A DNA stretch of 64,000 nt from Halorussus halobius. Lineage in GTDB: Archaea > Halobacteriota > Halobacteria > Halobacteriales > Haladaptataceae. The notes under the pieces were generated by a model, which made no database searches, was not told the DNA's origin, and worked only from the letters and a program-made list of their open reading frames with translations. The stretch covers positions 1,054,001-1,118,000 of the forward strand of contig NZ_ML219773.1 in assembly GCF_004765805.1 (NCBI RefSeq). Direction: 5' to 3'. Position 1 is the first letter of the stretch, and every line of letters begins with the position of its first letter. The translations under genes and the position numbers were made by a program. This document shows positions 20,961-50,730 of this stretch, piece by piece.

Positions 20961-21118
20961 CCCGGCGCGCGTTGGCGCGGCTTCATGCCGCGCCAGCATT
21001 CGCGCGAGGGACGAGCATCGCAGGCCGAAGGCCGAGAAGCGCAGGAGGCTGGGGAGGTGTGAGGTTGCGTTGCCGTGCAGTGCGGTTGCGGTTTCTCATT
21101 TGCCTCGGCAGTAGCTAG
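20961..21118 (-). repeat. Structured repeat element, copy 1
   Basis: Reading on the minus strand from 21118, the element has a core CTAGCTACTGCCGAGGCAAA, then an AACCGCAACCGC stretch and ACCTCACACCTCCCCAGCC. A GGCC-TTC-GGCC hairpin, a TCCCTCGCGCG segment and a terminal hairpin follow. The terminal stem TGGCGCGGC (20987-20995) pairs with GCCGCGCCA (20973-20981), around loop ATGAA. It ends in CGCGCGCCGG. The same order of parts is found at 21159, 31681 and 50375. It is probably noncoding. Confidence 0.75.
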
Positions 21119-21185
21119 CTTCACGATTCAGTCGACCGTTATTCTGGGTTCATTTAAACTAGCTACTGCCGAGGCAAATGAGAAA
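21092..21185. repeat. Perfect 27 bp inverted repeat
   Basis: The arms 21092-21118 and 21159-21185 are exact reverse complements of 27 bases, with a 40-base spacer. The arms are the cores of repeat copies 1 and 2. The spacer contains an AT-rich CATTTAAAC sequence that could serve as a TATA box. If transcribed, the RNA would form a long hairpin; as DNA it could extrude a cruciform or be a recombination end. Confidence 0.85.
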
Positions 21186-21275
21186 TCGAAACCTCACACC
21201 TCCCCAGCCTCCTCACTCCCTCGCTGCGCTCGGTCGTTCGTCCCTCGCGCGCGTTGCTCGCGCGCGCCGGAGTGG
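21159..21275 (+). repeat. Structured repeat element, copy 2
   Basis: This copy has the core CTAGCTACTGCCGAGGCAAA, then AACCTCACACCTCCCCAGCC, a CGCTGCGCTCGG segment and GTTCGTCCCTCGC. It ends in a hairpin CGCGCGCG-TTGCT-CGCGCGCG (21246-21266) running into GCGCCGGAGTGG. It lacks most of the AACCGC tract of copies 1 and 3, and is shorter. Confidence 0.7.
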
Positions 21276-21431
21276 GACAACCTCAAAAGCAGGAGTCAAC
21301 GAAAACGGCGGGGACCGTGGCGAAGTGAATCTAGATTTTGGAGCCACTCGTTGACGCAATCGAAGGGTCCGTTTCGCCGCCGTAACGCAGCCGGCACGTG
21401 AACTTATCACCTCGTCCACGCTACGGGGGGT

Positions 21432-21593
21432 ATGGACTGGCGAATCGTCGTCGCCGGATTCGTCGTGAGCGTCGGATTCGTCGTCGGCTGGATGGAGTTC
21501 GGCACGCTCGGCGGGGCGGTTCTCTCGGTCGTCTTCGTCTCCGGGCTGTTCCTCGCCGACTGGGCTATCGACGAGTACATCTACGAGGTGTAA
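21432..21593 (+). CDS. Small two-helix membrane protein
   Basis: A 53-residue protein, MDWRIVVAGFVVSVGFVVGW, then a second hydrophobic helix and the tail DWAIDEYIYEV. The two helices cover most of the protein. A GAACTTATC box lies about 28 bases upstream of the ATG, so the transcript is probably leaderless. No family is recognised. It is likely a conserved haloarchaeal small membrane protein. Confidence 0.6.
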   Translation: MDWRIVVAGFVVSVGFVVGWMEFGTLGGAVLSVVFVSGLFLADWAIDEYIYEV

Positions 21594-21676
21594 ATCGAGT
21601 CGTTCCGAGTACTCTCACCGTCGTTCGACCGATCTCCTCCCCGCGCTTTTTATACCAAGACGGCGAAACGCGGAAT

Positions 21677-22918
21677 ATGAAGACCATCAAGGACAGCGTC
21701 CACGACCACATCGAGGTCGAGGGCGTGGCTCGGGAACTGCTGGACGCGCCCGCGGTCCAGCGGCTCCGCCGCATCAAGCAGCTCGGGCCCGCCCACCTCG
21801 TCTACCCCTCCGCGAACCACACCCGGTTCGAGCACAGCCTCGGGGTCTACTACCTCGCGTGCGAGGCGCTCGACCACCTCGGGATTCAGGGCAAGCGCGC
21901 CGAGCGGGTCCGGGCCGCCGCCATCCTCCACGACGTCGGCCACTGCCCGTACAGCCACGCCATCGAGGAGGTCGTCCACCGTCACACCGGCAAGTACCAC
22001 GACGACGTCCACGAGCTCCTCGCCGACAACAAGGTGGGGGAGGTGCTCCGCGACCACGGCCACGCGCCGGACGCCATCGCGGACCTCATCGCTGGCGAGG
22101 GACGACTGGGCCAGCTCGTCGCGGGCGAGCTCGACGTCGACCGGATGGACTACCTCGTGCGCGACGCCCACCACACCGGCGTCCCGTACGGCACCATCGA
22201 CCACGCCCGACTGGTCCGGGAGCTGACGCTGGTCGACGACGAACTCGTGCTGGCGGCGGGCAACGTCCCGACCGCCGAGAGCCTGCTGCTGGCGCGCGCG
22301 CTGATGAACCCGACCGTCTACAACCACCACGTCACCCGCATCGCGCGGGGCATCCTCCAGCAGGCCACCGAGCGCCTGCTGGAGGCCTCGGACGTGACCC
22401 CCGAGCGGCTCCGCCGGATGGACGACGCCGACCTCCTCGTGGCGCTGCGCGAGACGCCCGAGACCGCCGAGTTCGCCCGGCGGCTGAGCGACCGCGACCT
22501 CTACAAGCGGGCGGTGTGGGCCGAGATGGGCGACGTGCCCGAGGCGGTCATCGACGCCGACCACGCGACGCTCCGGGAGTTCGAGGCCGACGTCGCGGCC
22601 GACGCCGGCGTCGACCCCAGCGAGGTCATCGTCGAGGTGATGGCCCGTCCCGGCATGACCGAGTCCGAGTCGCGGGTCGTGGTCAACGGCGAGATACGGC
22701 GGCTCGAGGAGCAGTCGGCGCTGGTGGCCGCGCTCCAGCACGTCCAGCGCGCCCAGTGGCGGCTCGGCGTCTACGCGCCCCGCGAGGCCACCGACGCGGT
22801 GGGCCACGCCGCCGAGCGCGTGCTCGGACTCGAGACCGACGGCGCGCTCGTCAACGAGGTCCGGACGCCGGGGACGCCCACGACGCTCGACGAGTTCGGG
22901 TCGCCGCCGGATAACTGA
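21677..22918 (+). CDS. HD-domain phosphohydrolase (SAMHD1/dGTPase-like)
   Basis: A 413-residue HD superfamily protein. The metal site is visible as H53 (HTRFEHSLGVYY), H85-D86 (ILHDVGHCPYSH) and D155 (GELDVDRMDYLVRDAHHTG), the layout of dNTP triphosphohydrolases and SAMHD1. It probably hydrolyses nucleotides and may help control dNTP pools; the substrate is not proven by sequence. A TTTTTATACC box about 27 bases upstream of the ATG supports the start and a leaderless transcript. Confidence 0.88.
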   Translation: MKTIKDSVHDHIEVEGVARELLDAPAVQRLRRIKQLGPAHLVYPSANHTRFEHSLGVYYLACEALDHLGIQGKRAERVRAAAILHDVGHCPYSHAIEEVVHRHTGKYHDDVHELLADNKVGEVLRDHGHAPDAIADLIAGEGRLGQLVAGELDVDRMDYLVRDAHHTGVPYGTIDHARLVRELTLVDDELVLAAGNVPTAESLLLARALMNPTVYNHHVTRIARGILQQATERLLEASDVTPERLRRMDDADLLVALRETPETAEFARRLSDRDLYKRAVWAEMGDVPEAVIDADHATLREFEADVAADAGVDPSEVIVEVMARPGMTESESRVVVNGEIRRLEEQSALVAALQHVQRAQWRLGVYAPREATDAVGHAAERVLGLETDGALVNEVRTPGTPTTLDEFGSPPDN

Positions 22919-23005
22919 GTTCGACGGCCGACTCCGCCCGGTGTCGGACGCTCGGCGGACGAACGAATGGGGAGCTTCAAGGGCGTTCCGGCGCATCCCG
23001 AACAC

Positions 23006-24019
23006 ATGATTGTCGAGGGGACCGTACTCCGAGGCCCCGAGTTCGAACCGGTAGCGGGCCGCGTCGTGGTCGAAGACGGGGAGATAACCGCAGTCGAGGA
23101 GGCGTCGGTCGACTCCTCGAAGGTCGTGGTGCCGGCGTTCGTCAACGCCCACACCCACATCGGCGACTCGATCGCCAAGGAGGCCGGCGGCGGGCTGAGC
23201 CTCGACGAACTCGTCGCGCCGCCCGACGGCCTCAAACATCGGCTGCTCCGGCAGGCCGACCGCGAGGAGAAGGTCGAGGCCATGCGCCGGTCGGCCCGGT
23301 TCATGCAGCGGACCGGCACCGCATCGTTCCTCGAATTCCGGGAGGGCGGCGTCGAGGGCGTGTACGCGCTCCGGGAGGCGGTCGAGGGGCTGGATATCGA
23401 CCCCGTGATACTGGGGCGCGAGACCGTCGACGCCATGGCGGCCAGCGAGGGGTTCGGCGCGAGCGGCGCGCGCGACGCCGACTTCTCGCGCGAGCGCACC
23501 GCCACCGCCCGCGAGGGCAAACTGTTCGGCATCCACGCGGGCGAGCGCGACGCCGCCGACGTCAACCCCGCGCTCGACCTCGACCCCGACTTTCTGGTCC
23601 ACATGGTCCACGCCGAACCGCTCCACCTCGACCGCGTCGAAGACAGCGGTGTCCCGGTGGTGGTGTGTCCCCGCTCGAACCTCGTCACCGACGTCGGGGT
23701 CCCGCCCATCGCGGAGCTGGTCGAGCGCACCACGGTCGCGCTGGGCACCGACAACGTGATGCTCGACAGCCCCTCGATGTTCCGGGAGATGGAGTTCGCG
23801 GCCAAACTCGCCGACGTGAGCGCCCGCGAGGTGCTCCGGATGGCGACGCACAACGGCGCGAAAATCGCCGGGCTCGACTGCGGAGTCATCGAGGAGGGAC
23901 GCCCGGGGAAGCTCCTCGTGCTCGACGGCGATTCGGACAACCTCGCGGGCGCGCAGGATGTGGTCCGCGCGGTGGTCCGGCGGGCCGGAGCCGGCGACGT
24001 CGCGGACGTGGTCCTGTAG
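23006..24019 (+). CDS. Amidohydrolase-family metal-dependent hydrolase
   Basis: A 337-residue amidohydrolase of the cytosine-deaminase/chlorohydrolase-like group. Metal ligands are H49 and H51 (NAHTHIGD), a histidine in [10 protein letters not shown], another in HMVHAEPLH and the aspartate in LGTDNVMLD. The C-terminal [11 protein letters not shown] and [11 protein letters not shown] complete the family pattern. A frame open from 22967 is extended by 13 residues, but [10 protein letters not shown] at 23006 is the natural start. The substrate is unknown. Same-strand neighbour of RNase J but separated by a 385-base gap. Confidence 0.82.
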
Positions 24020-24404
24020 GCGACCCCGACGACCGACCGGAGGTCGACTCGCGCGAGTCGCTCGGCCCGACGCTCGCATCGGTGGCCGGTTGTTTCCGCT
24101 TTCGTTCGCGCCGTACCAACTCGAATCCCGGGACGTCGGTGGGCCGCGCCCAATCCCGGCAGTTTTTATTACCGGGACGCGTAACCCAAGCATAGACCGT
24201 TCGCTCGCGGGACGTGGCTTCGGCCGCCGCGGGGTCCCTCCACGGCTGCAAGACGCCGGGCGGGGGCCGCGACGCCGCGAGCAGGTTTACGTGCGTACGG
24301 ACGCCGCGTGGCGCTGCCCCGACGGGCAGTCCCGCGTTGCCGCCGCGGCACGGCGTGGCTCCGTCAGGGAACGCGACGCGGCTTTGCGTACATACGGTGA
24401 AACT
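24020..24404. other. Long leader or RNA-bearing gap upstream of RNase J
   Basis: This 385-base gap has a strong TATA-like box (AGTTTTTATTACC, about 24160-24172). If used, transcription would start near 24190, about 215 bases before the RNase J start codon. The transcribed part is GC-rich with several possible hairpins, for example CGACGGGCAGTCCCG. It contains no ORF I can support. It could be a long 5' leader or a separate small RNA. It lacks the landmarks of RNase P RNA or SRP RNA. Confidence 0.45.
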
Positions 24405-25757
24405 ATGGAAATCGAAATCGCAACAATCGGCGGATACGAGGAAGTCGGACGGCAGTGTACTGCCGTGCGCGCAGGCGACGACGTGGTCATCTTCGACATG
24501 GGGCTGAACCTGTCGAAGGTGTTGCTCCACGACAACGTCGAGACAGAGAAGCTGCACAGTCTGGACCTCATCGACATGGGGGCCATCCCGGACGACCGCG
24601 TGATGTCGGAGCTCGAAGGCGACGTGCAGGCCATCGTGCCGACCCACGGTCACCTCGACCACATCGGGGCCATCTCGAAGCTGGCCCATCGGTACGACGC
24701 GCCGATAGTCTCCGCGCCGTTCACCATCGAACTGGTGAAACAGGAGATTCAGAGCGAGGAGAAGTTCGGCGTCGAGAACGACCTCGTGAAGATGGACGCG
24801 GGCGAGACGATGTCCATCGGCGACTCCGGACAGGTCGAGTTGGAGTTCGTCAACGTGACCCACTCCATCATCGACGCCATCAACCCCGTTCTCCACACGC
24901 CGGAAGGGGCCATCGTCTACGGCCTCGACAAGCGGATGGACCACACGCCGGTCATCGGCGACCCCATCGACATGAAGCGGTTCCGCGAGATCGGCCGCGA
25001 GGGCGAGGGCGTGCTGGCGTACATCGAGGACTGCACCAACGCGGGCCGGAAGGGCCGCACGCCGAGCGAGTCGGTGGCGCGCCGCCACCTCGAAGACGTG
25101 ATGCACTCGGTCGAGGACTACGACGGCGGCATCGTGGCGACCACCTTCTCCAGCCACATCGCCCGCGTCAAGAGCCTCGTGGAGTTCGCCAAGGACATCG
25201 GGCGCGAACCCGTCCTGCTGGGCCGGTCGATGGAGAAGTACTCGGGCACCGCCGAGCGACTCGACTTCGTGGACTTCCCCGAGGACATGGGGATGTTCGG
25301 CCACCGCAAGTCGGTCGACCGCACGTTCAAGCAGATAATGAAGGAGGGCAAGGAGAACTACCTCCCCATCGTCACGGGCCATCAGGGCGAGCCCCGCGCG
25401 ATGCTCACCCGCATGGGCCGGGGCGAGACGCCCTACGACCTCGACAACGGCGACAAGGTCATCTTCTCGGCCCGCGTGATTCCGGAGCCGACCAACGAGG
25501 GCCAGCGCTACCAGTCCGAGCGCCTCCTCAAGATGCAGGGCGCGCGCATCTACGACGACGTCCACGTCTCGGGCCACCTCCGCGAGGAGGGCCACTACGA
25601 GATGCTCGACGCGCTCCAGCCCCAGCACGTCATCCCCGCCCACCAGGACATGAAGGGCTTCTCGCCGTACGTGGACCTCTGCAAGAGTCAAGGGTACAAG
25701 CTGGGCCGGGACCTCCACGTCACCAGCAACGGCAACCTCATCCAACTGGTCGAGTGA
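24405..25757 (+). CDS. rnj: Ribonuclease J (archaeal beta-CASP exonuclease)
   Basis: A 450-residue metallo-beta-lactamase/beta-CASP nuclease of the archaeal RNase J group, which degrades RNA 5' to 3'. Motifs are [18 protein letters not shown] at the start and the metal motif THGHLDHIG (H81, H83, D85, H86). THSIIDAI follows, then the beta-CASP segment [26 protein letters not shown], and [11 protein letters not shown] and VIPAHQD near the end. The frame is open far upstream, but the ATG at 24405 is the conserved start. It is four bases from idsA, a linkage often seen in haloarchaea. Confidence 0.93.
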
Positions 25758-25761
25758 GAAC

Positions 25762-26817
25762 ATGACGGACGCGAGCGCCGGGACGCTGGAAGCGCAGGTG
25801 ATGGGCGCGGTCGAACAGCGACGCGAACTCGTCAACGAGGCCATCGAGACCGACCTCCCCGTCGAGGAGCCCGAGCGCCTCTACGAGGCCGCCCGCTACC
25901 TGCTCGACGCGGGGGGCAAGCGCCTGCGACCGACCGTCCTGTTGCTCGTCGCCGAGGCGCTCGCCGATATCGACCCCGAGGCGGCCGACTACCGCGACTT
26001 TCCCGCGTTGACGGGGGGAACGGTCGACGTGATGTCGGCGGCCGTCTCCATCGAGGTCATCCAGTCGTTCACGCTCATCCACGACGACATCATGGACGAC
26101 GACGACCTCCGGCGGGGCGTGCCGGCGGTCCACCGCGAGTACGACACCTCGACCGCGATTCTGGCGGGCGACACGCTCTACTCCAAGGCGTTCGAGATAC
26201 TCGTGGAGGCCGAGGCCGCCCCCGAGCGCATCGTGGAGGCGACCGACGTGCTGGCGACGACCTGCACCAACATCTGCGAGGGGCAGGCCCTCGACATCGC
26301 GTTCGAGGACCGGACCGACGTGTTGCCCGCGGAGTACCTCCAGATGGTCGAGGACAAGACCGCGGTCCTCTACGGTGCCTCGGCGACCATCCCGGCCATC
26401 CTGCTGGGTGCCGACGACCGGACGGTCGACGAGCTCTACCGGTACGGCATCGACGTGGGCCGGGCGTTCCAGATTCAGGACGACGTGCTCGACCTGACGG
26501 TGCCAAGCGAGAAGCTGGGCAAACAGCGGGGCAGCGACCTCGTGGAGGACAAACAGACCCTCATCACGCTCCACGCCCGCGAGCAGGGCGTCGACGTGGA
26601 CTCGCTGGTCGAGACCGACGACGTCGACGCCGTCACCGAGGCGGAGATCGACGAGGCGGTCGCCCGGCTCGAAGACGCCGGGAGCATCGACTACGCGACC
26701 GACAGGGCCCAACAGCTCGTCTCGACGGGCAAGGACCGGCTCTCGGTCCTCCCGGACAACGAGGCCCGCGAACTGCTCGAGGGCATCGCCGACTACCTCA
26801 TCGAACGCGGGTACTGA
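25762..26817 (+). CDS. idsA: Geranylgeranyl (polyprenyl) diphosphate synthase
   Basis: A 351-residue trans-prenyltransferase that builds C15 to C20 chains for archaeal lipids and carotenoids. The first aspartate-rich motif is HDDIMDDDDLRRG (about 109-121) and the second is QIQDDVLDLT (about 238-247). GGKRLRPTVLLL near 52 binds isopentenyl diphosphate. The start is five bases after the RNase J stop, so the two are likely co-transcribed. Confidence 0.93.
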   Translation: MTDASAGTLEAQVMGAVEQRRELVNEAIETDLPVEEPERLYEAARYLLDAGGKRLRPTVLLLVAEALADIDPEAADYRDFPALTGGTVDVMSAAVSIEVIQSFTLIHDDIMDDDDLRRGVPAVHREYDTSTAILAGDTLYSKAFEILVEAEAAPERIVEATDVLATTCTNICEGQALDIAFEDRTDVLPAEYLQMVEDKTAVLYGASATIPAILLGADDRTVDELYRYGIDVGRAFQIQDDVLDLTVPSEKLGKQRGSDLVEDKQTLITLHAREQGVDVDSLVETDDVDAVTEAEIDEAVARLEDAGSIDYATDRAQQLVSTGKDRLSVLPDNEARELLEGIADYLIERGY

Positions 26818-26952
26818 CCGGGACGGTCGTCCCCGGCGCTCGTTCTCGGCGACGGACGAATCGCTCGACAGCAGCGTGAGAGAAATCGATGTCGGCCGCC
26901 CGCGGGTGACAAGCGCCGGCGGGGCGGAACTACTCGTCCTGTGGGGGAGAAA

Positions 26953-27354
26953 CTACTCGTCCGGGAACTCCTTGTAGTGGGTGTGTTCGAGATACTCTTC
27001 TATCGTCGGCTGTCGCCAGTAGCGGACGGCGTCGCTACGAGCGTCGTACTCCACGACGTCGGCGTCGGCGAGTCGGGGCAGATGGACCTCGCGGAGCCCG
27101 TCCGCGACCTCGCGGCGGAGCGACTCGGCGAGTTCCGACTCGCCCGCCCGGGCCTCCAGCATCGCCACCTCGTCGGCGAGGCTGCCGACGTCGGTGAGTC
27201 CGTCCTCCGTGCCGACGAGCGCGTACATCGCGTAGCGGCGACGGCGGTCCGCCAGCAGGTCGAACACCGTGTCGAACGAGGGCGTTCTGACCGCGCGACC
27301 GCTTCGGAGGGCGTGGTCGCTCTCTCGGCCCGACCTGACTGAATCGTTGCTCAT
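26953..27354 (-). CDS. Winged-helix regulator-like protein (DUF7344 type)
   Basis: A 133-residue protein with one winged-helix domain (about 27-115). FDTVFDLLADRRRRYAMYAL is the first helix pair, LRREVADGLREVHLPRLADA leads to the recognition region, and DVVEYDARSDAVRYWR is the wing. This pattern is shared by a large haloarchaeal group of small HTH proteins. The N-terminal 20 residues are polar, and the frame extends upstream to 27411 without a better start. The target genes are unknown. Confidence 0.78.
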   Translation of the reverse strand: MSNDSVRSGRESDHALRSGRAVRTPSFDTVFDLLADRRRRYAMYALVGTEDGLTDVGSLADEVAMLEARAGESELAESLRREVADGLREVHLPRLADADVVEYDARSDAVRYWRQPTIEEYLEHTHYKEFPDE

Positions 27355-27492
27355 CGCGGGTGACCTCCACCACCAGGTTCCGCCAGCGGGGACAACAAAC
27401 CCATGCCTCAACAGTTAGGTACGCCGGGGAGAGAGTGTCAGATGCCGAACGATAGGGGTCTGGACGGTCCCGGGGCGGACGCGCCGGCCGAC

Positions 27493-29205: not shown

Positions 29206-29336
29206 GTTCTAAATGCGCGATACACGCCCGGAAAGGAAAGTGTATTGGTCAACTGTGATACGTCTCCGCGCGGCGAGACCCCGGACTCGGTTCGAATCCG
29301 GTCCAGTTTTCCCCGGGACGCTCGAATCGGTCGCCA

Positions 29337-31067: not shown

Positions 31068-31103
31068 ACTGCGTGCCGGCGTACTGATTCTCGACACGGG
31101 CGC

Positions 31104-31248
31104 GCTCGGTGACGCCTTCCACGGGTGGATGCGCTCGACGAGACTGACCACGATAGCGTGCGCTCGGTGACGCCGACCACGAGGGGATGTGCTCGGTGAC
31201 GCCGACCACGAGGGGATGTGCTCGGTGACGCCTTCCACCGGAACGCGC
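31104..31248 (+). repeat. 29 bp tandem repeat array, five units
   Basis: Units begin at 31104, 31133, 31162, 31191 and 31220, exactly 29 bases apart, each starting GCTCG. Typical content is CTCGGTGACGCCGACCACG; the second unit is the most diverged and the third and fourth are nearly identical. A sixth, out-of-register copy starts near 31274. The 29-base period is not a multiple of three, which argues against a protein repeat. Confidence 0.85.
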
Positions 31249-31453
31249 CCGAGGAACCGAACCGCCGGGGTGCGCTCGGTGACACAGCCACCGAGGGCGG
31301 GACTGAAAGGGGCCGCCCGCTCGCGTTCAGTTCAGTCGTCTCAGCGACCCCTATCCTCGCGCGGGCTGTGCGGAGAGCGCGAGGATATGTCGCTGAGCGG
31401 CCTCCTCGTGAGCGAAGCGAACGAGGGCTCGTCGGAACTCGCTTCCGACGGCG

Positions 31454-31616
31454 GCGAGCGGGCGGGGGCTTTCGGGGCGTCGTTCATCACGACAGTCAAG
31501 ACGCGACCGACCGAGCCAACGATACACAGCGAGCGGGCGGGGGCTTTCGGGGCGTCGTCTCGATACGTTCCAAAAGTAATAGTGGCGTCTCGTAGCGAGC
31601 GGGCGGGGGCTTTCGG
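31454..31616 (+). repeat. Three direct copies of a GC-rich 22-30 bp repeat
   Basis: Copies of GCGAGCGGGCGGGGGCTTTC lie at 31454-31483, 31529-31558 and 31595-31616. The first two are identical over 30 bases and the third over 22. Their spacing, 75 and 66 bases, is divisible by three, and one forward frame reads ERAGAFGAS in the first two and ERAGAFG in the third. The reverse complement resembles a dispersed repeat at 48097 and 61420. Confidence 0.8.
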
Positions 31617-31680
31617 AAAAGAAGCACCTCCGAACTTCGGTCCTCGTCCTCACGAACCCCGAACTGAACTTCGGTGCGAA

Positions 31681-31838
31681 GCTAGCTACTGCCGAGGCAA
31701 ATGAGTGCCCGCACCGCAACCGCAACCGTGACCGCGACCGCGCCTCGTCCTCCCCAACCGCCTGCGATGCTCACTGCGTTGCGCTTCTCGGCCCTCGCAC
31801 GCTTTGGCGCGAGATGAACTCGCGCCAGCGCGCGCCGG
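31681..31838 (+). repeat. Structured repeat element, copy 3
   Basis: The core TAGCTACTGCCGAGGCAAAT is followed by CCGCAACCGCAACCG, CCTCCCCAACCGCC, GCGCTTCTCGGCCC, and the terminal hairpin TGGCGCGAG (31805-31813), loop ATGAA, CTCGCGCCA (31819-31827). It then ends in GCGCGCGCCGG. Compared with copy 1, the loop is identical and the two inner stem pairs changed together. Confidence 0.75.
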
Positions 31839-31946
31839 AACGGGTGGACGACCATCGCGGAATCGTCCGTTGAACCATCGCGGAATACGAAGTTCGCCCC
31901 GAAGCACGCGCACGATCGACACGCCATCGCGGAACCTCCGAACCCC

Positions 31947-40096: not shown

Positions 40097-40188
40097 ACCC
40101 GACCCGTCGAGGGCCGCGTCCTTAAGCGGTGGCGTCTCGGCGCGTTTCTTTTTCGCTAGTGAGTAAACTTTTAGTCTCTGGGGCCGCG

Positions 40189-40196
40189 AGGAGGTG
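40189..40196 (+). promoter_or_regulatory. Strong Shine-Dalgarno sequence
   Basis: GAGGAGGTGAC sits directly before the ATG at 40199, about five bases from GGAGGTGA. Most starts in the window are leaderless or have no such sequence. A GTAAACTTTTAG promoter-like box lies some 30 bases further upstream (about 40163-40173). It marks the start of the ubiquitin-like gene. Confidence 0.65.
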
Positions 40197-40198
40197 AC

Positions 40199-40471: not shown

Positions 40472-40635
40472 TTCGGCGTCGGTGGGGACCCGACGCCGTA
40501 ACTTCCGACGCTACCGGCGACAAATTTCACCCGAACGTTTGAGCGTTCCGTCACTTTCTTCTCGGGGGAGCGAAAGAATCGGGGTATGCCCGCGTCCGCG
40601 CATCGCCACCGACCCGCCAGCCCCCGAAGTCAGCC

Positions 40636-41271: not shown

Positions 41272-41289
41272 CGACGACGGCAGTTCCGC

Positions 41290-42567: not shown

Positions 42568-42662
42568 AGCGACACTGGGTCGCTATCGGGGATAAAGGTC
42601 CGGGTCGCTCCGGAGCCATCCAAATCGGCTTAAGCGAGAACGCCCAATCTCTCGACCGAAAC

Positions 42663-42950
42663 ATGGCCGACGGAACCGACCGCGTTCGCGCACACGTCTT
42701 CGTCTCCGGCACGGTACAGGGCGTCTACTACCGAGCGAACACCCGCGACGCCGCCCGGGAGTGCGGGGTGGACGGCTGGGTCCGGAACCTCGACGACGGC
42801 CGGGTCGAGGCCGTCTTCGAGGGGCCCGAGGACGCCGTCTCGGGGATGGTCGAGTGGAGCCACGAGGGCAGCCCCGCAGCCAGCGTCGACGACGTCGACG
42901 TCGAGTACGGCGCTCCGAAGGGCGAAGACGGGTTCCGGGTCCGGCGGTGA
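42663..42950 (+). CDS. acyP: Acylphosphatase
   Basis: A 95-residue enzyme that hydrolyses acylphosphates. The catalytic loop HVFVSGTVQGVYYRANTR contains R24, and the catalytic asparagine N42 lies in GWVRNLDDGRVEA, the family pattern. A CGGCTTAAGC box about 30 bases upstream supports the ATG. It is convergent with guaB. Confidence 0.93.
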   Translation: MADGTDRVRAHVFVSGTVQGVYYRANTRDAARECGVDGWVRNLDDGRVEAVFEGPEDAVSGMVEWSHEGSPAASVDDVDVEYGAPKGEDGFRVRR

Positions 42951-42987
42951 CGTCGGGTCTCCGACCGGTCGAAGCGCCGTCAGTCCG

Positions 42988-44481: not shown

Positions 44482-44786
44482 GTAAGCCGAACGTAGCCCC
44501 CGGTCAAAAACGTTGCGAGATGATGTACCGGGCCCCGGTCAGTCGTGGGTATGATACGCATGGTCGTGGGAACGCCAGGGCCCCGTCGGGCCGGCGTCGG
44601 CCGGCGTGTCGTTCGAACCGGAGTTCGGCTCGGACCGATATCAGATTCGTTACCTGAAGATGGTCGGTTGAAGGCGTGACTAACCGAGAATTCTATGCCG
44701 CTTATACGTACGGCGGTGTGGTATCTCTGTTGAGTGGGGTTCTCTCTCACGCAACGTTTATGCTCGGAACGCGTTTTGGAACGGAT
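44482..44786. other. Gap of 305 bases upstream of guaB
   Basis: The gap holds the guaB promoter side and several AT-rich segments (GCTTATACG near 44700, ACGTTTATGC near 44755). A GC-rich palindromic stretch (GGGCCGGCGTCGGCCGGCG) is near 44590. I see no RNA gene. The TATA-like ACGTTTATGC could drive the doubtful frame at 44787. Confidence 0.4.
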
Positions 44787-44999
44787 ATGGACTCTACCAG
44801 TCCCATCGCATCGGGCATCGCCGGTCAGACGAGCGTCGACTCCGGCAACTTCTTCAAACCGAACGATTCGATGGGATTCCGTACACTGGTAGAGACGACC
44901 TTCGTGGGACGACGGTGTGACCTCGGACGCGACTCGGGCCACCGCAGGCACCGCCACTCCCATCACCGTTTGGCCGATGGTCACGGCCGGGCCAGCTAG
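44787..44999 (+). CDS. Doubtful 70-residue frame
   Basis: A frame starting MDSTSPIASGIAGQTSVDSG with a basic, histidine-rich C-terminus. An ACGTTTATGC box 25-30 bases upstream would fit a leaderless start. The C-terminal half (RRHRHSHHRLADGHGRAS) does not look like a haloarchaeal protein, which argues for a frameshifted remnant or chance. The overlapping frame from 44917 gives another unconvincing peptide. It ends five bases before the DUF5794 gene. Confidence 0.25.
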   Translation: MDSTSPIASGIAGQTSVDSGNFFKPNDSMGFRTLVETTFVGRRCDLGRDSGHRRHRHSHHRLADGHGRAS

Positions 45000-45004
45000 C
45001 CCGC

Positions 45005-45868
45005 ATGAGCAGTTCCCAGCACCCCGTCGCGCTCCGACTGGAGCGACAGGTGGGCGGCGCGACGAAGCTACTGGCCACGGTCATGTGCCTCCCGCTGGTC
45101 GACGGCATCTTCCCCGCGCTCGTGCTCGCGGGCGAGCTCGACGACCCCATCGGCATCCTGCAGGTCGGCCTGCTGGTGTTCGGCGGGAGCGCCACGGTCG
45201 CGGTCATCCTCGCGGAGATGGACGGGACGCCCCGCGAGCAGGCCAGGACCGTGCTGGCGGTCGGCACCGGACTGGTCGCGATCGCGGCCGTGGAGGCGGC
45301 GTTCGCGCCGACCATCGCGAGCGCGCTGGACCTGGTCATCTTCGAGCGGTTCGCCGCGCTGGTGATGGCGGCCATCGCGGCCAAGACCGCGAGCGCGCGC
45401 ATCGGCGAGTACCTGCCCGGCCCCTCGGTCATCGTGGGCCTCGGACTGGTCGCCAGCCTCGACCCCGGGGGCTTCGAACTCGTGCTGGTGCCCGACTACG
45501 GGCTGGTCCTCCGGGCGGTCGCCGCGGCCGGGTCGGGCGTGGCGTTCGCGCTCGCGGTCGCGCTGACCGCCCCGTATCTGCGCGAGGTCGTCCACATCGA
45601 CCGCTTCCGGTTCGGCAGCGCGGTCGCGCTGGGCCTCCTCCCGCTGAGCATCGTGAACCTCGCGCCCGACAACGCGCCGCTGGCGGTCCTCGTGGTCACG
45701 GGCCTGCTCGCCTACGACCCCGGACCGCCGGACGCCGCCGTCGAGAGCGGTGGAACCGACGACGCACCTGCGGAACCGCAGACGGTCGCCACCGACGGCT
45801 CCGGCGACGACGAGGACTCGGGCATCGATTTCCCCGCGTCCGAGGACGAGCGCGAACCGTGGCTCTGA
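45005..45868 (+). CDS. DUF5794 family multi-helix membrane protein
   Basis: A 287-residue protein with about seven hydrophobic helices between residues 20 and 235, then a 50-residue acidic cytosolic tail. The start MSSSQHPVALRLERQVGGAT and the RLERQVGG motif fit the haloarchaeal DUF5794 group as I recall it. Function is unknown. The neighbouring small zinc protein belongs, I think, to DUF5795. Confidence 0.7.
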   Translation: MSSSQHPVALRLERQVGGATKLLATVMCLPLVDGIFPALVLAGELDDPIGILQVGLLVFGGSATVAVILAEMDGTPREQARTVLAVGTGLVAIAAVEAAFAPTIASALDLVIFERFAALVMAAIAAKTASARIGEYLPGPSVIVGLGLVASLDPGGFELVLVPDYGLVLRAVAAAGSGVAFALAVALTAPYLREVVHIDRFRFGSAVALGLLPLSIVNLAPDNAPLAVLVVTGLLAYDPGPPDAAVESGGTDDAPAEPQTVATDGSGDDEDSGIDFPASEDEREPWL

Positions 45869-45970
45869 TCTCCTGATCTTTTCTCGAGTATACCGACCCA
45901 CGAACCATCCTCCCTGTAGAGTCCGTATCGGACGGGAAGGCTTACCCGACCGGGCCGCCATCGTCCCGAC

Positions 45971-46198
45971 ATGGCCGACAATCGCGTCGTGCAGGGTCGG
46001 ATGGTGACGCCCGAGAGCCTCGCCGAGATGATAGAGGACGGGGACGTGATGGACGCCGAGTCCATCGCCGACGCCGACCGCGAGTGTCCCGACTGCGGTG
46101 GCGACGTGCTGGAAGTGGGCTACATGCCGGGCGTGACCGAGTTCGTCACCGGCTGGAAGTGCCAGGACTGCGACTGGGCCGAAACCGACCGGGAGTGA
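45971..46198 (+). CDS. DUF5795-type small zinc-ribbon protein
   Basis: A 75-residue protein, MADNRVVQGRMVTPESLAEM, with one zinc ribbon: CPDCGGDVLEVGYMPG followed by WKCQDCDW. The four cysteines are intact. The pattern matches a small haloarchaeal family of unknown role, remembered as DUF5795. A GGCTTACCC box lies about 30 bases upstream of the ATG. Confidence 0.75.
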   Translation: MADNRVVQGRMVTPESLAEMIEDGDVMDAESIADADRECPDCGGDVLEVGYMPGVTEFVTGWKCQDCDWAETDRE

Positions 46199-46221
46199 GT
46201 TCGGAATTCGAGTGTAGTTGG

Positions 46222-46259
46222 GATATCAATCGACGAGGGGTTCAAATCCCTCCGACCCC
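46222..46259 (+). repeat. Partial copy of tRNA-Trp 3' half upstream of the gene
   Basis: The 38 bases at 46222-46259 match 46474-46511, the end of the intron plus the 3' exon of tRNA-Trp, at 34 of 38 positions, in the same orientation. The T-arm TTCAAATCCCTC and acceptor CGACCCC are intact. No 5' half is present, so it cannot be a working tRNA. It may be an old attachment-site or duplication scar. Confidence 0.8.
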
Positions 46260-46332
46260 GCTGCTTTCGACGATGCCGAGGACCCCGGGAAACCGAAATC
46301 CCTTTAGGCGGGATAGACCAACGAAATCCTGC

Positions 46333-46512
46333 GGGGTCGTGGCCAAGTCAGGGATGGCGACTGACTCCAGAGGCGACGCGCCCGGGACGAGACTCCAGCT
46401 GATATACCGAGCGACCGACTGATCATCGGCTCGCGACGACGACCCTCTGGAGTTCCGAGGCGCAGACACCGGAGATATCAGTCGATCGGGGGTTCAAATC
46501 CCTCCGACCCCA
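46333..46512 (+). tRNA. trnW: tRNA-Trp (anticodon CCA) with intron
   Basis: The exons are 46333-46370 and 46477-46512. Acceptor stem GGGGTCG pairs with CGACCCC, and A73 is at 46512. The D stem is GCCA with TGGC, the anticodon stem ACTGA with TCAGT, and the T arm GGGGG-TTCAAAT-CCCTC. The anticodon CCA is at 46367-46369. CCA is not encoded at the 3' end. The 106-base intron lies between positions 37 and 38, the standard archaeal site. A CCCTTTAGGC box is about 30 bases upstream. Confidence 0.93.
46371..46476 (+). ncRNA. tRNA-Trp intron with C/D-box guide for C34
   Basis: Within the intron, CTCTGGAGT (46445-46453) is the exact reverse complement of ACTCCAGAG (46364-46372), which spans the anticodon loop and splice site. 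Counting five bases up from a D-like box CCGA (46455-46458) gives 46450, which pairs with C34 (46367). This fits known haloarchaeal tRNA-Trp introns that guide 2'-O-methylation of C34. A second antisense stretch CGACTGAT (46416-46423) is complementary to the exon around U39, but a D' box there is unclear. A C-like box CTGATAT is at 46399. Confidence 0.75.
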
Positions 46513-46650
46513 CTTTTCGCGGCTCGCAACACCGCGAGCGACTTCCATGTCGCTCGCTTTTCCGCGGGTCGCAAGAATGAATCGTCGAGGGATTTGGACT
46601 AGGCCAGAGGCACGCCCGCGCAACGAAGTGAGCAGGAATGTCTGACCGTA

Positions 46651-46672
46651 GTTCACAATTCCTCCGACCCCA
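46651..46672 (+). repeat. Partial copy of tRNA-Trp 3' end downstream of the gene
   Basis: The sequence GTTCACAATTCCTCCGACCC, plus CA, resembles the end of the tRNA gene (GTTCAAATCCCTCCGACCCCA) with one insertion and one substitution; the last 12 bases match exactly. It lies just before the AT-rich island. This is the position expected for the displaced 3' end left when an element integrates into a tRNA gene. Confidence 0.55.
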
Positions 46673-46675
46673 TTA

Positions 46676-47400
46676 CTTCATCGTGTTATTCCAATCCATA
46701 GGTGGTATAGGTGAGCCATGGAGCTGTCCATTGACTCCTCAAAAGTATTAATCTATCGTGGATAACCTGTCTAAGTATAAACTCGGGTATACCAAAGCGA
46801 TTAATGTACTTGTTTGCTTCTCCGATAGTATGAACTCTCAAGATATCTCGGAAGACGATTTACTCTATGCTGCTTATCAAGTAAAAGAAGCATCAGACCG
46901 TCTCAAAAGAGCAAAAGATCGGGTCTTTTTAGCGGATGCGGATGTTGATCCAGAGAATATTTCTATTGAAGATTTGAATAAATTTGCAATGTAATCCGAT
47001 GCAACAAATCTAATACTTGACTTGCAATTATGCATCGAACTTTCTGTAAAGTCGATGTTTCTAGCACTTGGCATCAAACATCCAGAGCGACATCATATTA
47101 CTTTTGAGGATAAAACAACAAAGGGACTCTTGGAAAACGTACCGGATGGCTTCGAAAAAGGAGATGACTTCCCGAGAGCAATTTTCTTAACTCAATTTTG
47201 GCATCGATTTTATGAACTCACAAAATATGGAGTCCCAAAGCTAGGTATCAAGCCTATAGATATAATCGACAGATCTGACGCGGAGAAAGCAATTAATGAC
47301 GCGGAATATTGTGTAAATCTGGCAAACGAACTAGTACAGCATCAAACCGAGGAACATGACGTTGAAATTCCCGCATTTCGGTTAGGATATTAAATTCGAA
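46676..47400. mobile_element. AT-rich island next to tRNA-Trp, probably a foreign remnant
   Basis: From about 46676 to 47400 the base composition drops sharply, to AT-rich DNA with codons such as AAA, ATT and TTA that the neighbours avoid. The island begins directly after a partial tRNA-Trp 3' end and contains a broken HEPN-like gene. No integrase is present, so if it was an integrative element, only a piece is left. The right end is not clearly marked by a repeat. Confidence 0.5.
46758..47393 (+). pseudogene. HEPN-like protein gene interrupted by a TAA stop
   Basis: A single reading frame of 212 codons is split by one in-frame TAA at 46992-46994. The part before ends NKFAM and the part after begins SDATNLILDLQLCIELSVKS, with no frameshift. 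The second part has the helical pattern of HEPN domains (QLCIELSVKSMFLALGIKHP, then a C-terminal helix EKAINDAEYCVNLANEL). HEPN proteins are often toxin RNases or nucleotide-binding partners of MNT antitoxins. I see no RxxxxH active site and no partner gene. It may also be read as two separate peptides, but that is less likely. Confidence 0.55.
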
Positions 47401-47495
47401 AGCTGGGATTCGGATCTTTCTTACTAGCCGACTCGTCATCACGGAGTGCCACAACAACCACTACTCTCCAACCCCAGCGTTTCAACGAGAATCGA

Positions 47496-48035
47496 ATGAC
47501 TCCACAATCGCTCGCTGCGTGGCTCGCCAAACACAGCAACGCGCCGAAGACAGCCCTCAAACCCATCGCCAGCAGACTCGGCGTCCCGACGAACTACCTC
47601 GGCGCGGCGCTGTTCGCGGGCCAACTCGCCTACGAGAATCAGGACGCCATCGTCGAGTACGCCAGCAAGGGCGGCATCACGGTGGGCGAGTTCCTCCACG
47701 CACAGGCCCGCGAGCGCTACGGCGCGAACCACCCGCTCACCCAGCATCTCGGCGAGAACGTCGACGCTGTCTCGGAGGCGTTCGAGGGCACCGAGGCGGA
47801 AGCGCGCACCTTCGCCGAGTTCTACCGCCGGTACAGCACTGTCGAGCGCGAGCATCGTCTGCGCGACGAATTCGACCGGGACGTTCTCGATTCCAGCGTC
47901 GGAACTGTCGCGGACCGACTGCCGGGCCGGGATTCGCTCCCCGGACGCGACTCGGTTCCGGACCTCCCTGATATCCTCGGGTCCGACGCCGACGCGGACG
48001 AGGCCGTCGACATTCCGGTCGTCGACTCGTCGTAA
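47496..48035 (+). CDS. Protein of unknown function with disordered tail
   Basis: A 179-residue protein whose first 90 residues look helical (MTPQSLAAWLAKHSNAPKTA and LAYENQDAIVEYASKGG). It has an acidic linker and a Ser/Asp/Gly-rich tail with PGRDSLPGRDSVPDLPD, likely disordered. The GC-rich codons match the chromosome, in contrast to the preceding AT-rich island. I do not recognise the family. The upstream gap includes CTTACTAGCC, a possible promoter. Confidence 0.55.
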   Translation: MTPQSLAAWLAKHSNAPKTALKPIASRLGVPTNYLGAALFAGQLAYENQDAIVEYASKGGITVGEFLHAQARERYGANHPLTQHLGENVDAVSEAFEGTEAEARTFAEFYRRYSTVEREHRLRDEFDRDVLDSSVGTVADRLPGRDSLPGRDSVPDLPDILGSDADADEAVDIPVVDSS

Positions 48036-48096
48036 CCGTTTGGAGACGGTTCTCGGGGGTTTTCGGGACACGCTTCGGTGACGCTGTCGAAACAAC

Positions 48097-48162
48097 GTCC
48101 TCGAAAGCCCTCGGCGCGCTCGCCCGTTCAGCCCGCCAGGACGGTGATTGATTCACCGAGCG
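48097..48162 (+). repeat. Dispersed repeat, copy at 48.1 kb
   Basis: The segment begins GTCCTCGAAAGCCCTCGG and ends GATTGATTCACCGAGCG. It aligns over most of its length with 61420-61476, though copies differ by small gaps. It lies in the 165-base gap between the 3' ends of the unknown gene and the MetE-like gene. The GAAAGCCC-CG-CCCG part also resembles the reverse complement of the triple repeat at 31454. Confidence 0.7.
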
Positions 48163-48199
48163 AAACCAGCGGTTGGTCGTGCTTGTCTCGATACGACGG

Positions 48200-49327
48200 C
48201 TATTCCAGTCGCTCGGACGCCAGCGCCGCACCTTCCGAGAGCGCTTCCAGCTTCTTCCACGCGATGGCCGGGTGGACGAAGTCCGCGCCCAGTACCGTCT
48301 CGAACCCGCAGTCCGCGCCCGCGACGACGCTCGAGGGGTCGCCAACGACGTCCGCGAACCGCTCTATCTGGTTCGCTATCACGTCGGGGTTCTCGACGAT
48401 GTTGGTCTTGACGTCCACGACGCCCGGCACGAGCGACCAGCCGTCGGGCAGCGGGTGCTCCTCGAAGGTTTCGTACTCGTGGCGGTGCCGGGGGTTGGCG
48501 GCCTCGACGATGAGCCCGCTCACGTCGGCCTCGTAGAACAGGTCGATTACCTCGTCCAGCGCCACGTCGTGGTGGTGCGGACCCGGATAGTTGCCCCAGC
48601 AGGCGTGCATTCGGACCTGCTCGCTCGGCACGCCGTCGAGCGCGCGATTGATGGCCTCGACGTAGGTCCGGACGTGGTCGCGGAACTCGTCTACGTCGGC
48701 GTCCGCGAACGTGATGGTGAACGCCGCGAGCAGTTCGGGCGCGTCGATCTGGAGCCGGAACCCGTTGTCGGCGATGATGCGGTACTCGGTGTTGAGCGCC
48801 TCGGCGAGGTCGAACAGGTACTCCTCGGTCGAGTCGTGGTACGCCGATTCGGTGAACCGGAGGACCGCGCCGGGCGACGGCGCGGTGTGGAACCGGTCGG
48901 CGAACGAGACGCCCTCGGCCTCGATGGCGTCGTCGAGGCGGTCCAGTTCGGCCCGAAGCTGGTCCTCGCCGACGTACTCGATGGGGTCGGTCAGAATCGG
49001 CCCGCCGATGTTGTCCTTGTCGCCGAACAGCTCCTCGGCGAACTCGGGGAAGTCCGCGAGGTCGGCCGGGAGGTCGCGCTCGGCGAACTCGTCGCTGTAG
49101 CCCGAGAGGCGATTCGTCACGCCCACGGAGTAGGCGAGTCGCGCCTGTTCGCCGTTGTTCGCAACGTCGATGCCCGCCTCGGACTGCTTGCGCACGACTT
49201 CGCGTACGGCATCGGTGACCGCGTCGTCGAACGTCTCGTCGTCGACCGACTCGGCGTCGGCCAGCAGTTCCTGAAGCGACGCCGGTCGCGGCAGGCTCCC
49301 GACGTGCGTGGTCTGGATGTCGGTCAT
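48200..49327 (-). CDS. metE: Cobalamin-independent methionine synthase (MetE C-terminal type)
   Basis: A 375-residue protein of the short archaeal MetE family, which transfers a methyl group to homocysteine. Seen motifs are TTHVGSLPRP (6-15), RMHACWGNYPGPHHHDV, IVEAANPRHRHEYETF, and GADCGFETVLG near the end. The zinc ligands are the histidine and cysteine in HACWGN, the glutamate in VEAANPRH and the cysteine in ADCGFE. Haloarchaea usually have two such genes in tandem; only one is here. A GGTAATACG box lies about 25-30 bases upstream. Confidence 0.87.
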   Translation of the reverse strand: MTDIQTTHVGSLPRPASLQELLADAESVDDETFDDAVTDAVREVVRKQSEAGIDVANNGEQARLAYSVGVTNRLSGYSDEFAERDLPADLADFPEFAEELFGDKDNIGGPILTDPIEYVGEDQLRAELDRLDDAIEAEGVSFADRFHTAPSPGAVLRFTESAYHDSTEEYLFDLAEALNTEYRIIADNGFRLQIDAPELLAAFTITFADADVDEFRDHVRTYVEAINRALDGVPSEQVRMHACWGNYPGPHHHDVALDEVIDLFYEADVSGLIVEAANPRHRHEYETFEEHPLPDGWSLVPGVVDVKTNIVENPDVIANQIERFADVVGDPSSVVAGADCGFETVLGADFVHPAIAWKKLEALSEGAALASERLE

Positions 49328-49481
49328 GTGCGGTCACGTTCGCACGACGACTGGGTAATACGTAGCGTAGTGGCAAAACTAACTCGTATCGGCGCGGAAT
49401 CGCCGGCCCGAAACGACAGCGGTGCGGACGCTCCACGCCGACACCGTAACGTTCTCACGCCGGCGACCTGATACGTCGTGC

Positions 49482-49892
49482 ATGAAGTCGCCCGAACACG
49501 CCGTCCTCGGGGCGCTCGCGTCGGGGCTGCTGGTGGTCGCGCTCCCCGCCTCGGTCCCGCTGGAGGCCGCCCTGCTGTTCGGGTACGGCCTCGCGCTCTC
49601 GGTGTTCGTCGACCTCGACCACTTCCTCGTCGCGCGCTACCACGCGGGCGACTGGACGCACCTCCGGCGGTGTCTCGCCGACCCGGTGTTCGCGTTCACC
49701 GACCAGGAACAGGTGTTCGAGGGCGTCGACACCCGGACGCTCGAAGTCCAGCGATTGCTGAGTCACCTGCTCGTGGGCGGTGGGCTGGTCTGTGGGCTGG
49801 CGCTGGTTCGGCCGGTGTACGCGGCGTTCACCGCGGGAGTGCTGTACGTTCACGTCGTCGCGGACGTGCTTCGGGACGGGGAGATCGTCTGA
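49482..49892 (+). CDS. Multi-helix membrane protein of unknown function
   Basis: A 136-residue protein with four hydrophobic stretches (about 9-26, 29-46, 90-107, 110-127). Conserved-looking polar patches include SVFVDLDHFLVARYHAGDW (HxxxxH-like, with D/H residues inside the membrane region), and LSHLLVGGG follows. This pattern resembles small metal-dependent hydrolase-like membrane families (YdjM/YfhO type), but the match is uncertain. The start at 49482 is the first ATG of the family-length frame. Confidence 0.6.
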   Translation: MKSPEHAVLGALASGLLVVALPASVPLEAALLFGYGLALSVFVDLDHFLVARYHAGDWTHLRRCLADPVFAFTDQEQVFEGVDTRTLEVQRLLSHLLVGGGLVCGLALVRPVYAAFTAGVLYVHVVADVLRDGEIV

Positions 49893-50021
49893 GGGTACAG
49901 TGCAGCAGTCGGGCCCGATGGAGTGTTCTCGCAGCGAAATATATTCACCAGTAGATAGTAGCACGGATGCATTATCTGACTGGAGGTATGAAATCCCCGA
50001 TAAGTACAGAGAGTGTACCTC

Positions 50022-50231
50022 TCATATCACTCTGGAGTCACGGTTGCGTAAACCGAGATACAGGAGGAAGAACAGATACCCAACGATGTACACAGAGGAA
50101 GCGAGCGCCCAAACGAGGGCGTGTTTTGTTTCCCAATTCCGCCGTTTCGCATCCCGATATACGTAGATAGCGAGAAGCAGGGGAAAGAATGCAAACACGA
50201 AGTGTGCTAACTCGACTTCCCAACTGAGCAT
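50022..50231 (-). CDS. Small membrane protein in AT-rich DNA
   Basis: A 69-residue protein, MLSWEVELAHFVFAFFPLLL, with two hydrophobic helices and a basic segment between them (YRDAKRRNWETKHALVW). The gene and its flanks are AT-rich relative to most of the chromosome, hinting at transfer. A GCATATTTATATGG element about 30-40 bases upstream is a clear promoter and supports the start at 50231. The lines of the YRDAKxR motif occur in many short haloarchaeal membrane proteins of unknown function. Confidence 0.65.
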   Translation of the reverse strand: MLSWEVELAHFVFAFFPLLLAIYVYRDAKRRNWETKHALVWALASSVYIVGYLFFLLYLGLRNRDSRVI

Positions 50232-50730
50232 CAGGTGGCCGTACTGTTCGATTCCTAACCATATAAATATGCACTCCGTACGTACCGAACCCGCATTCTC
50301 GATTTCGGAGTTCCGGCTGATACAGAAACCATGCTATCGACTACTGTTACAACGAAGTAGAACGGTCGAGCGAAGCTAGCTTCTGCCGGGGCCGATGAGT
50401 AACCGCACAGCACCGCGACGGCGGACCTCACGCCGCCCAAGCCTCGGCGAGCGCCTGAACGCCGTCGGACAACCCGCGTCCGACGAGCAGTCGGTCGCTT
50501 CGCTCCCGACGACGCGCTCGCCTCCCTCGCGCGTTCTGACGCGGCCACTTGCGGGCCGCGTCAGCGCGCGCCGAGAGCAAGGTCGGGTCAGTCTGCGCAG
50601 GACGAAACATCGCCGGGCCGGCACGGTTCCGTCGGGGGGCCAGTACGCGCCACGAAGCGCGACCTCGAACGCGAATCGCGCCGTCGCGCGGTCCGGACGA
50701 TTTATCCGGGCTCGGGCCACAGTCGGGCGT
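50232..50730. other. Gap upstream of dinB with structured repeat
   Basis: This 499-base gap starts with the AT-rich promoter of the small membrane gene, continues through about 100 bases of mixed composition, and then holds the fourth copy of the structured repeat element (50375-50573). It ends with the dinB promoter (GATTTATCCGG, near 50700). No other gene is seen. Confidence 0.65.
50375..50573 (+). repeat. Structured repeat element, copy 4 (diverged)
   Basis: The core reads GCTAGCTTCTGCCGGGGCCG, with several changes from the other copies, then ATGAGTAACCGCAC. ACCTCACGCCGCCCAAGCC, CGCTTCGCTCCCG, CTCCCTCGCGCG and a terminal hairpin CTGACGCGGCC-ACTTGCG-GGCCGCGTCAG (50536-50564) follow. It ends in CGCGCGCCGAG. 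The order of parts is the same as in copies 1-3, with a longer stem and different stem bases. Confidence 0.7.

Follow-up and report, generated by a model that had tools for sequence, protein, structure and literature searches.

A dispersed family of inverted palindromic dyads with covarying terminal hairpins in the haloarchaeal genus Halorussus

A stretch of 64,000 nucleotides from Halorussus halobius (the window; contig NZ_ML219773.1, positions 1,054,001 to 1,118,000) contains intergenic elements belonging to a family that is dispersed through the 3,933,954 bases of this genome (G000). The true unit of the family is a dyad of approximately 255-580 bp, i.e. two inverted arms around a short spacer, with hairpins at the arm ends whose stems covary. 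With moderate confidence, we take the family to be a non-autonomous, mosaic palindromic DNA repeat, similar to the bacterial REPINs (hairpin-forming doublets of repetitive extragenic palindromic, or REP, sequences) and BIMEs (bacterial interspersed mosaic elements), which would now be largely inherited in place; no transposase of the Y1 type that is known to mobilise REPINs was found in this genome.

The dyad as the unit of a dispersed family

Searching the genome with a core pattern allowing up to 2 mismatches yielded 85 cores, against none for the reversed pattern used as a control. Core pairs no more than 110 bp apart number 13, where 0.2 would be expected for random positions, and all 13 are divergent; 12 are spaced at 63-69 bp, eight of them at exactly 65, and one at 106. 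Two further core pairs lie tail to tail, 361 and 395 bp apart. When up to 6 mismatches are allowed in the partner, a divergent partner 45-110 bp away is found for 53 of 82 arms (≤2 mismatches), and a same-strand neighbour for three. Divergent pairing at a preferred spacing therefore identifies the unit as arm-spacer-arm. Element loci were collected through core matches, so that the cores are partly selected by the search and their conservation is inflated.

Within an arm, the core consists of a conserved inner part, GCTAGCTACTGCC, and a lineage-specific tail. Reading outward, the order is AGCTAGCTACTGCC, a variable tail often ending in ATGAG, an ACCGC-like tract of very variable length, GCCTCACNCCTCCCCAGCC, a palindrome, CCCTCGCRCG, the terminal hairpin and GCGCGCGCC. 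The inner palindrome is of several alternative kinds that are swappable between copies, and core and CTCCCC block lie 16 to 146 bp apart (76 arms). A candidate terminal anchor was found in 99 of 122 arms (≤6 mismatches), some of these matches being spurious, and some arms do not have all parts. Spacers are mostly 23-40 bp long, with a mode of 36 (14 of 37 and 9 of 31 dyads), and are near random in sequence (identity 0.31-0.35 versus 0.25 when shuffled), with no strong common motif. Still, of 2145 spacer pairs, 56 score above the best pair in any of three shuffled sets, the others being not recognisably related; thus spacers form families, and the idea of CRISPR-like independent sequences was rejected.

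None of the 74 clusters of elements lies inside a gene called by our own simple codon-usage gene caller, in agreement with a preliminary description, made from the sequence of the window, which had placed the element only between genes. Genes flanking the clusters are convergent in 29 cases, divergent in 21 and in tandem in 23, one cluster lying at a contig edge, i.e. there is no fixed gene context. Convergent gaps seem to be enriched for elements, as they make up 15 of 61 gaps in the window and 3 of its 22 long ones. At six loci (L002, L017, L022, L028, L044 and L045) the ACCGC tracts, spacers or adjoining DNA have expanded into minisatellite-like tandem arrays. Two loci on different contigs (L084 on C4 and L096 on C7) have identical spacers and cores and similar flanks, pointing to a duplicated segment.

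The preliminary description had reported four separate copies in the window. All four are present at the positions it gave, but copies 1 and 2 together make up a single inverted dyad while copies 3 and 4 are solo arms. The core TAGCTACTGCCGAGGCAAATGAG occurs exactly at 21095-21117 (minus strand), 21160-21182 (plus) and 31683-31705 (plus), with 0.00 occurrences expected (100 shuffles), and copy 4 carries the variant core TAGCTTCTGCCGGGGCCGATGAG. Folded with DNA parameters and compared with shuffles, the region 20955-21285 forms a single long hairpin with side branches (free energy -132.4 kcal/mol, z -15.3); the solo arms fold into structures hardly more stable than those of shuffles (z -1.3 for copy 3 and -2.6 for copy 4). 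The features, read from the sequence with additional support given in brackets, are:

20955-21285, no strand: complete type-T dyad, central spacer flanked by two inverted arms (fold, 65-bp core spacing)
20961-21118, minus: left arm (copy 1) with core, ACCGC units, CTCCCCAGCC block, inner palindrome and terminal hairpin (core match)
20973-20995, minus: left-arm terminal hairpin, TGGCGCGGC-ATGAA-GCCGCGCCA on the minus strand, stems 20973-20981 and 20987-20995 (family covariation)
21107-21119, plus: left inner repeat GGCAGTAGCTAGC
21120-21157, no strand: central spacer, of a length close to the family mode (spacer comparison)
21158-21170, plus: right inner repeat ACTAGCTACTGCC
21159-21275, plus: right arm (copy 2) with short ACCGC tract, CCTCACACCTCCCCAGCC, palindrome and terminal hairpin (core match)
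21246-21266, plus: right-arm terminal hairpin CGCGCGCG-TTGCT-CGCGCGCG, stems 21246-21253 and 21259-21266
31681-31842, plus: solo arm (copy 3, locus L050), no partner core found upstream (locus survey, fold)
31805-31827, plus: copy 3 terminal hairpin TGGCGCGAG-ATGAA-CTCGCGCCA, stems 31805-31813 and 31819-31827
50375-50573, plus: solo arm (copy 4, locus L051) with the variant core TAGCTTCTGCCGGGGCCGATGAG and a nested palindrome (core search, fold)
50537-50563, plus: copy 4 terminal hairpin TGACGCGGCC-ACTTGCG-GGCCGCGTCA, stems 50537-50546 and 50554-50563

Hairpin covariation at the DNA level

As first described, the terminal stems of copies 1 and 3 differ in two inner pairs on both sides while the ATGAA loop is unchanged, and copies 2 and 4 have other self-complementary stems at the terminal position. 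This behaviour extends to the family. Terminal blocks were gathered by anchors outside the hairpin from loci of H. halobius and of H. litoreus HD8-51 (G017), resulting in 69 distinct blocks, 68 of which were aligned, one being dropped as not hairpin-like. Over eight stem pairs, 94.4% of the cells are standard pairs, compared with 26.7-45.4% in slid controls, and 6 of the 8 pairs have changed on both sides (48 cells). Four of five covariation measures were reached by none of 500 shuffles; the fifth, the number of further pair types, was reached by 27.

Such strong covariation would suit a structured noncoding RNA, with either the dyad or each single arm as the transcribed unit, a reading to which we give little credence. 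In an RNA made from one strand, G-U should be commoner than A-C among the non-canonical cells. A best-stem search gave 4 G-T against 5 A-C cells of 552, and the alignment 4 against 12 of 540 (4 against 6 with the outermost pair removed); a third count, over longer stems crossing a bulged junction, leans the other way (7 against 2). These numbers are small and reveal no clear G-U bias, which makes a cause at the level of DNA more probable than RNA. In addition, the tracts of 16-146 bp vary inside the arm, flanking genes lie in any orientation, and a search of the elements with Rfam 15 found no family at gathering score. RNA is therefore not our preferred reading, given that two of the three counts are without G-U excess and that no Rfam family reaches gathering score over the elements. 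Sub-threshold matches to microRNA precursors were obtained over 21082-21195 of the dyad (best E 2.9e-06, 38.8 bits versus a gathering score of 95); we put these down to the long hairpin, and they are a caution for automatic RNA annotation.

DNA palindromes can stay perfect through templated (strand-switch) repair or gene conversion, and DNA-level selection or templated palindrome correction fits the data as well. The covariation had initially been taken as direct evidence of selection for a hairpin. The covariation itself is borne out; selection does not follow directly from it, in view of the repair or conversion alternative and the lack of a clear G-U excess.

A tiny peptide, encoded by a shared frame ending in LICLGSS, had been rated the less likely alternative, and we agree that it is unlikely. 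This frame is the core read backwards. It is open for at least 60 codons in 53% of 98 arms versus 41% and 10% for the other two frames, but core-to-block distances are spread over all three frames (20/28/28 in 76 arms, P 0.43), and a spacing that ignores the frame argues against translation into a peptide.

Copying, conservation in place and spacer inversion

Paralogous dyads with related spacers, for example L143 and L142, align across the unit from hairpin to hairpin and not beyond; in this pair, the inner palindrome of one arm has been replaced. Since such alignments are bounded by the terminal hairpins, whole units have been copied between unrelated flanks and palindromic modules have been swapped between copies.

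Many elements also occupy equivalent positions in two species. A comparison of 40 H. litoreus regions (42 of its 73 core hits) with 66 H. halobius loci revealed 14 of the 40 at the same position, nine sharing both flanks and five sharing one flank on the same side. Assuming approximately 1350 long gaps, a number extrapolated from the window, about 2 shared loci are expected (P 8e-5 for at least 9 and 1e-9 for at least 14; 2e-3 and 2e-7 with 900 gaps), an expectation that a preference for certain gaps would raise. L057/L144, L088/L137 and L070/L135 were excluded because the element is found on different sides of the shared gene in the two species, and the weak pairs L091/L134 and L061/L152 stand outside the count. 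In 8 of the 9 two-flank pairs, the listed blastn flank matches end near genes, the exception being L043/L129, where the match spans the element. Arms or dyads are present in the 8 shared-locus pairs inspected, with dissimilar spacers. Concerted evolution of cores is only weak: orthologous tails stand at 0.600 (10 arms, 5/6 locus pairs) versus 0.64-0.65 within species, inner-core identities in this comparison being inflated because dyads were chosen with no more than 2 mismatches per inner repeat.

Such positional conservation would also fit a host function. In that case, the dyad would be a selected chromosomal site at which a host protein, involved in nucleoid organisation, replication, repair or termination, binds two inverted cores at fixed spacing, with the hairpins as part of the site. 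We regard this as unlikely, while granting it some weight. A recognisable partner core is kept in 53 of the 82 strong arms while spacers are near random, the spacer length has a mode of 36, and the loci common to the two species have spacers that do not align. H. litoreus arms also show polarity: among 19 exact dyads, 16 pair an A-class arm with a B arm, and strict A/B pairing occurs in 13 versus 8.3 at random (P 0.018), as determined with an arm-neutral pattern that replaced a biased version tied to the search core. However, copy number varies strongly among congeners, one of which matched nothing, the core-based locus search inflates core conservation, the constant spacer length may be inherited, as spacers form families, and the gene context is not fixed.

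Spacer inversion was judged only from flank-anchored or arm-anchored comparisons, element orientation being arbitrary in plain counts of direct versus inverted spacers. H. aquaticus XZYJ18 (G012), which like H. litoreus is matched by the dyad pattern, and the close relative G026 are collinear over 3054 bp at 93.7% identity around one dyad (L097 and L103, respectively). There, the 23-bp spacer is inverted and the arms are nearly unchanged: 22 of the 23 bases match the reverse complement, leaving one substitution. In a second orthologous group (L098, L101 and L110), reversed central matches are no more than suggestive since the repeats are themselves inverted. Of 15 pairs of related spacers among H. 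litoreus paralogues, five have opposite orientations when read against their arms, and a single dyad takes part in three of these.

Invertible DNA, in which the 13-bp inner repeats would serve a dedicated site-specific recombinase to flip the spacer, perhaps switching transcription of neighbours, would account for these flips, yet we hold it to be improbable. A second locus of the G012/G026 pair has the same orientation in both, which speaks against a frequent switch, and spacers are without a strong common motif. Moreover, chloroplast genomes are reported to have hairpin-associated inversions of 2-31 bp that are flanked by repeats of 8-18 bp (PMC5492656); with small-loop flips of this kind known, a dedicated recombinase is not needed. 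In both systems a loop between short inverted repeats flips between species, but the Halorussus loop sits in a dispersed repeat family. Thus, of the recombination site that had been suggested for the element, what we find is a spacer inverted between inverted cores across two species at one locus; no recombinase search was made.

Distribution, exchangeable cores and a REPIN-like repeat

The strict dyad pattern was found in 7 of 293 genomes of the order; all seven are Halorussus, the only one of 87 genera with a match. Within the family (28 genomes), cores like those of H. halobius are abundant only there (85) and in H. litoreus (73), the remainder having 0-12 and often other tails. With a covariance model of the terminal block and a ceiling of 53 scored candidates, at least 29-53 matches (lower bounds) were obtained in 9 of 10 sampled Halorussus genomes, 13 and 12 in genomes G035 and G121 of two other families, and 0-3 elsewhere among 117 genomes. 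In one Halorussus genome (G018), there was no match to the type-T core pattern, to the type-G motif described below or to the terminal-hairpin model (150 candidates scored). Because G018 matched neither the core patterns nor the hairpin model, the family looks dispensable, which suggests that it is not essential to the genus.

In G035 and G121, a like outer arm caps a different core, i.e. GGGACTGAAAGGGGC, a palindrome and then GGGGGCTTTC; of the 26 loci retrieved, two of them overlapping, 16 have GACTGAAAGGGGC. This type-G core is widespread: GGGACTGAAAGGGGCC (1 mismatch) occurs in 42 of 89 sampled genomes and 21 of 40 genera, Halorussus included, with 15 copies in H. halobius, 27 in H. litoreus, 85 in G011, 96 in G022 and none in G018. 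One copy lies in the window:

31299-31475, plus: type-G core with GGGACTGAAAGGGGCC, nested stems and GGGGGCTTTCG, belonging to a related modular element and lying 206 bp ahead of solo arm 3 (motif match, structure of relatives)

In nine Halorussus copies, 17 of 41 predicted pairs have changed on both sides. The common outer arm adjoins two of the H. halobius copies (L248 and L249), and L250 is without it. With its nested covarying stems and conserved unpaired stretches, type G could be a structured element in its own right; no Rfam family was found at gathering score. Its core in the window is followed at 31530-31620 by two more direct copies of GAGCGGGCGGGGGCTTTCG, a short tandem-like tail also present in other copies. 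The type-G motif was found in 4 viral contigs; the type-T core pattern was found in none, and a virus link for type T was dropped.

Elsewhere in the window, Rfam identifies an S15-Halobacteria ribosomal protein leader at 13527-13611 (minus strand, 66 bits) and a tRNA match over 180 bases at 46333-46512 (plus), which suggests an intron-bearing tRNA and was not reported by ARAGORN; ARAGORN places a tRNA-Arg at 11548-11648.

The closest known systems are the REPINs, which excerpts of the source (PMC3116915) describe as extragenic inverted doublets with a conserved core, in which the spacer is less conserved while its length and hairpin capacity are critical, compensatory changes are common, and singlets are interpreted as remnants. 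The Halorussus dyads share with them extragenic inverted doublets of a short conserved core at preferred spacing, variable spacers of near-constant length, compensatory stem changes and solo copies; their mosaic modules recall BIMEs. They differ in being archaeal and much larger, and in having extra tracts, terminal hairpins and spacer inversion. Also, bacterial REPs carry an unpaired GTAG tag (PMC3733652), whereas the GTAG of the Halorussus core (GGCAGTAGCTAGC) is part of the inverted repeat and, when the dyad is folded, is base-paired to the partner arm. Finally, REPINs go with Y1 transposases, the REP-associated tyrosine transposases (RAYTs), and none was found in the genome. The architecture thus matches closely, and the dyad falls short of a REPIN proper in that no Y1 transposase was found.

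Searches for Y1 (PF01797) gave no match in H. halobius or H. litoreus, no transposase or recombinase family other than Y1 and TnpB having been searched, so that an element driven by an IS200-type enzyme or RAYT was rejected. PF01797 is present in 10 of 18 Halorussus genomes and absent from 8. Four genomes with Y1 (G015, G019, G022 and G027) have at least 48-53 hairpin matches, and two without it (G011 and G013) are equally hairpin-rich; Y1 presence and hairpins therefore do not go together, although a past role of Y1 enzymes is possible, given these four congeners. A TnpB link was not seen either: all three H. halobius TnpB loci are without the core or the CTCCCCAGCC (CTCCCC) block, one having a lone 9-bp CCTCGCRCG terminal-anchor match. 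Of the REP/MITE-like mobile element first envisaged (MITE, miniature inverted-repeat transposable element), the dispersed intergenic REP-like family is upheld, and neither a link to a transposase nor, at the assumed ends, a target duplication was seen. Like MITEs, the dyads are short, non-coding and numerous and have terminal inverted repeats. A target duplication, as expected of MITEs, was not seen at their assumed and still uncertain ends, and a parent transposon was not identified, no systematic survey having been made.

Haloarchaea have dispersed, transposase-free repeats of their own, the PATEs and SMRs of Haloquadratum walsbyi, which (PMC3119063) resemble the dyads in having palindromes (PATEs) or inverted ends unlike those of known transposons (SMRs); PATEs are also without target duplication, and none was seen at the assumed dyad ends. 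By description rather than by sequence, the dyads are set apart from SMRs, of which SMR-A is approximately 110 bp and which target PATEs, and from PATEs, whose ends are of IS605 type. That the dyads are a PATE-like remnant of an IS200/IS605-type transposon is very improbable: PATEs are numerous and have near-terminal palindromes, but they lack terminal inverted repeats while the dyad is inverted throughout, Y1_Tnp is absent in H. halobius, and its three TnpB loci carry neither core. Among the matches listed in literature searches on haloarchaeal palindromic, MITE and SMR repeats, on Halorussus repeats, on REP or REPIN in archaea and on GACTGAAAGGGG, titles and abstract openings do not describe the family.

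A non-autonomous REPIN/BIME-like repeat remains the reading we favour. Copying would proceed through a single-stranded or cruciform hairpin form, processed in trans by some enzyme, and most copies today would be inherited in place. Templated repair or gene conversion may keep the palindromes perfect, the latter being reported to work efficiently between chromosome copies in Haloferax volcanii (PMC11276520). Spacer flips would be a by-product of recombination or replication across the 13-bp stem, and solo arms would be remnants, in line with the view taken of REP singlets (PMC3116915). Several results weigh against this reading. At the assumed ends, a target duplication was not seen (mean flanking match 1.52 versus 1.45, sd 0.24, when shuffled; 25 dyads), the true ends being uncertain and similarity (GTGGAA) seeming to continue outward. 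Nor did an empty site turn up: in the close pair G012/G026, a single additional locus was compared and is occupied in both. To these are added the missing Y1 enzyme, the third G-T count and the conservation of position already discussed.

More tentatively, and on balance we doubt it, the two core types may belong to a haloarchaeal REPIN-like system independent of RAYT, in which interchangeable cores, namely type T in Halorussus and type G (GGGACTGAAAGGGGCC...GGGGGCTTTC) across many genera, are capped by a common outer arm. An enzyme that processes DNA hairpins would have spread them, and recombination at the inner repeats would flip the spacers.

These findings also illustrate that covariation in DNA palindromes need not imply RNA. 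REPIN-type repeats are known from bacteria with RAYT enzymes (PMC3116915). An archaeal counterpart, with no RAYT found in the two core-richest genomes, would mean either another mobiliser or upkeep by the host, a question that the species pair with an inverted spacer, the Halorussus genome without matches and the core swap between families make directly testable.

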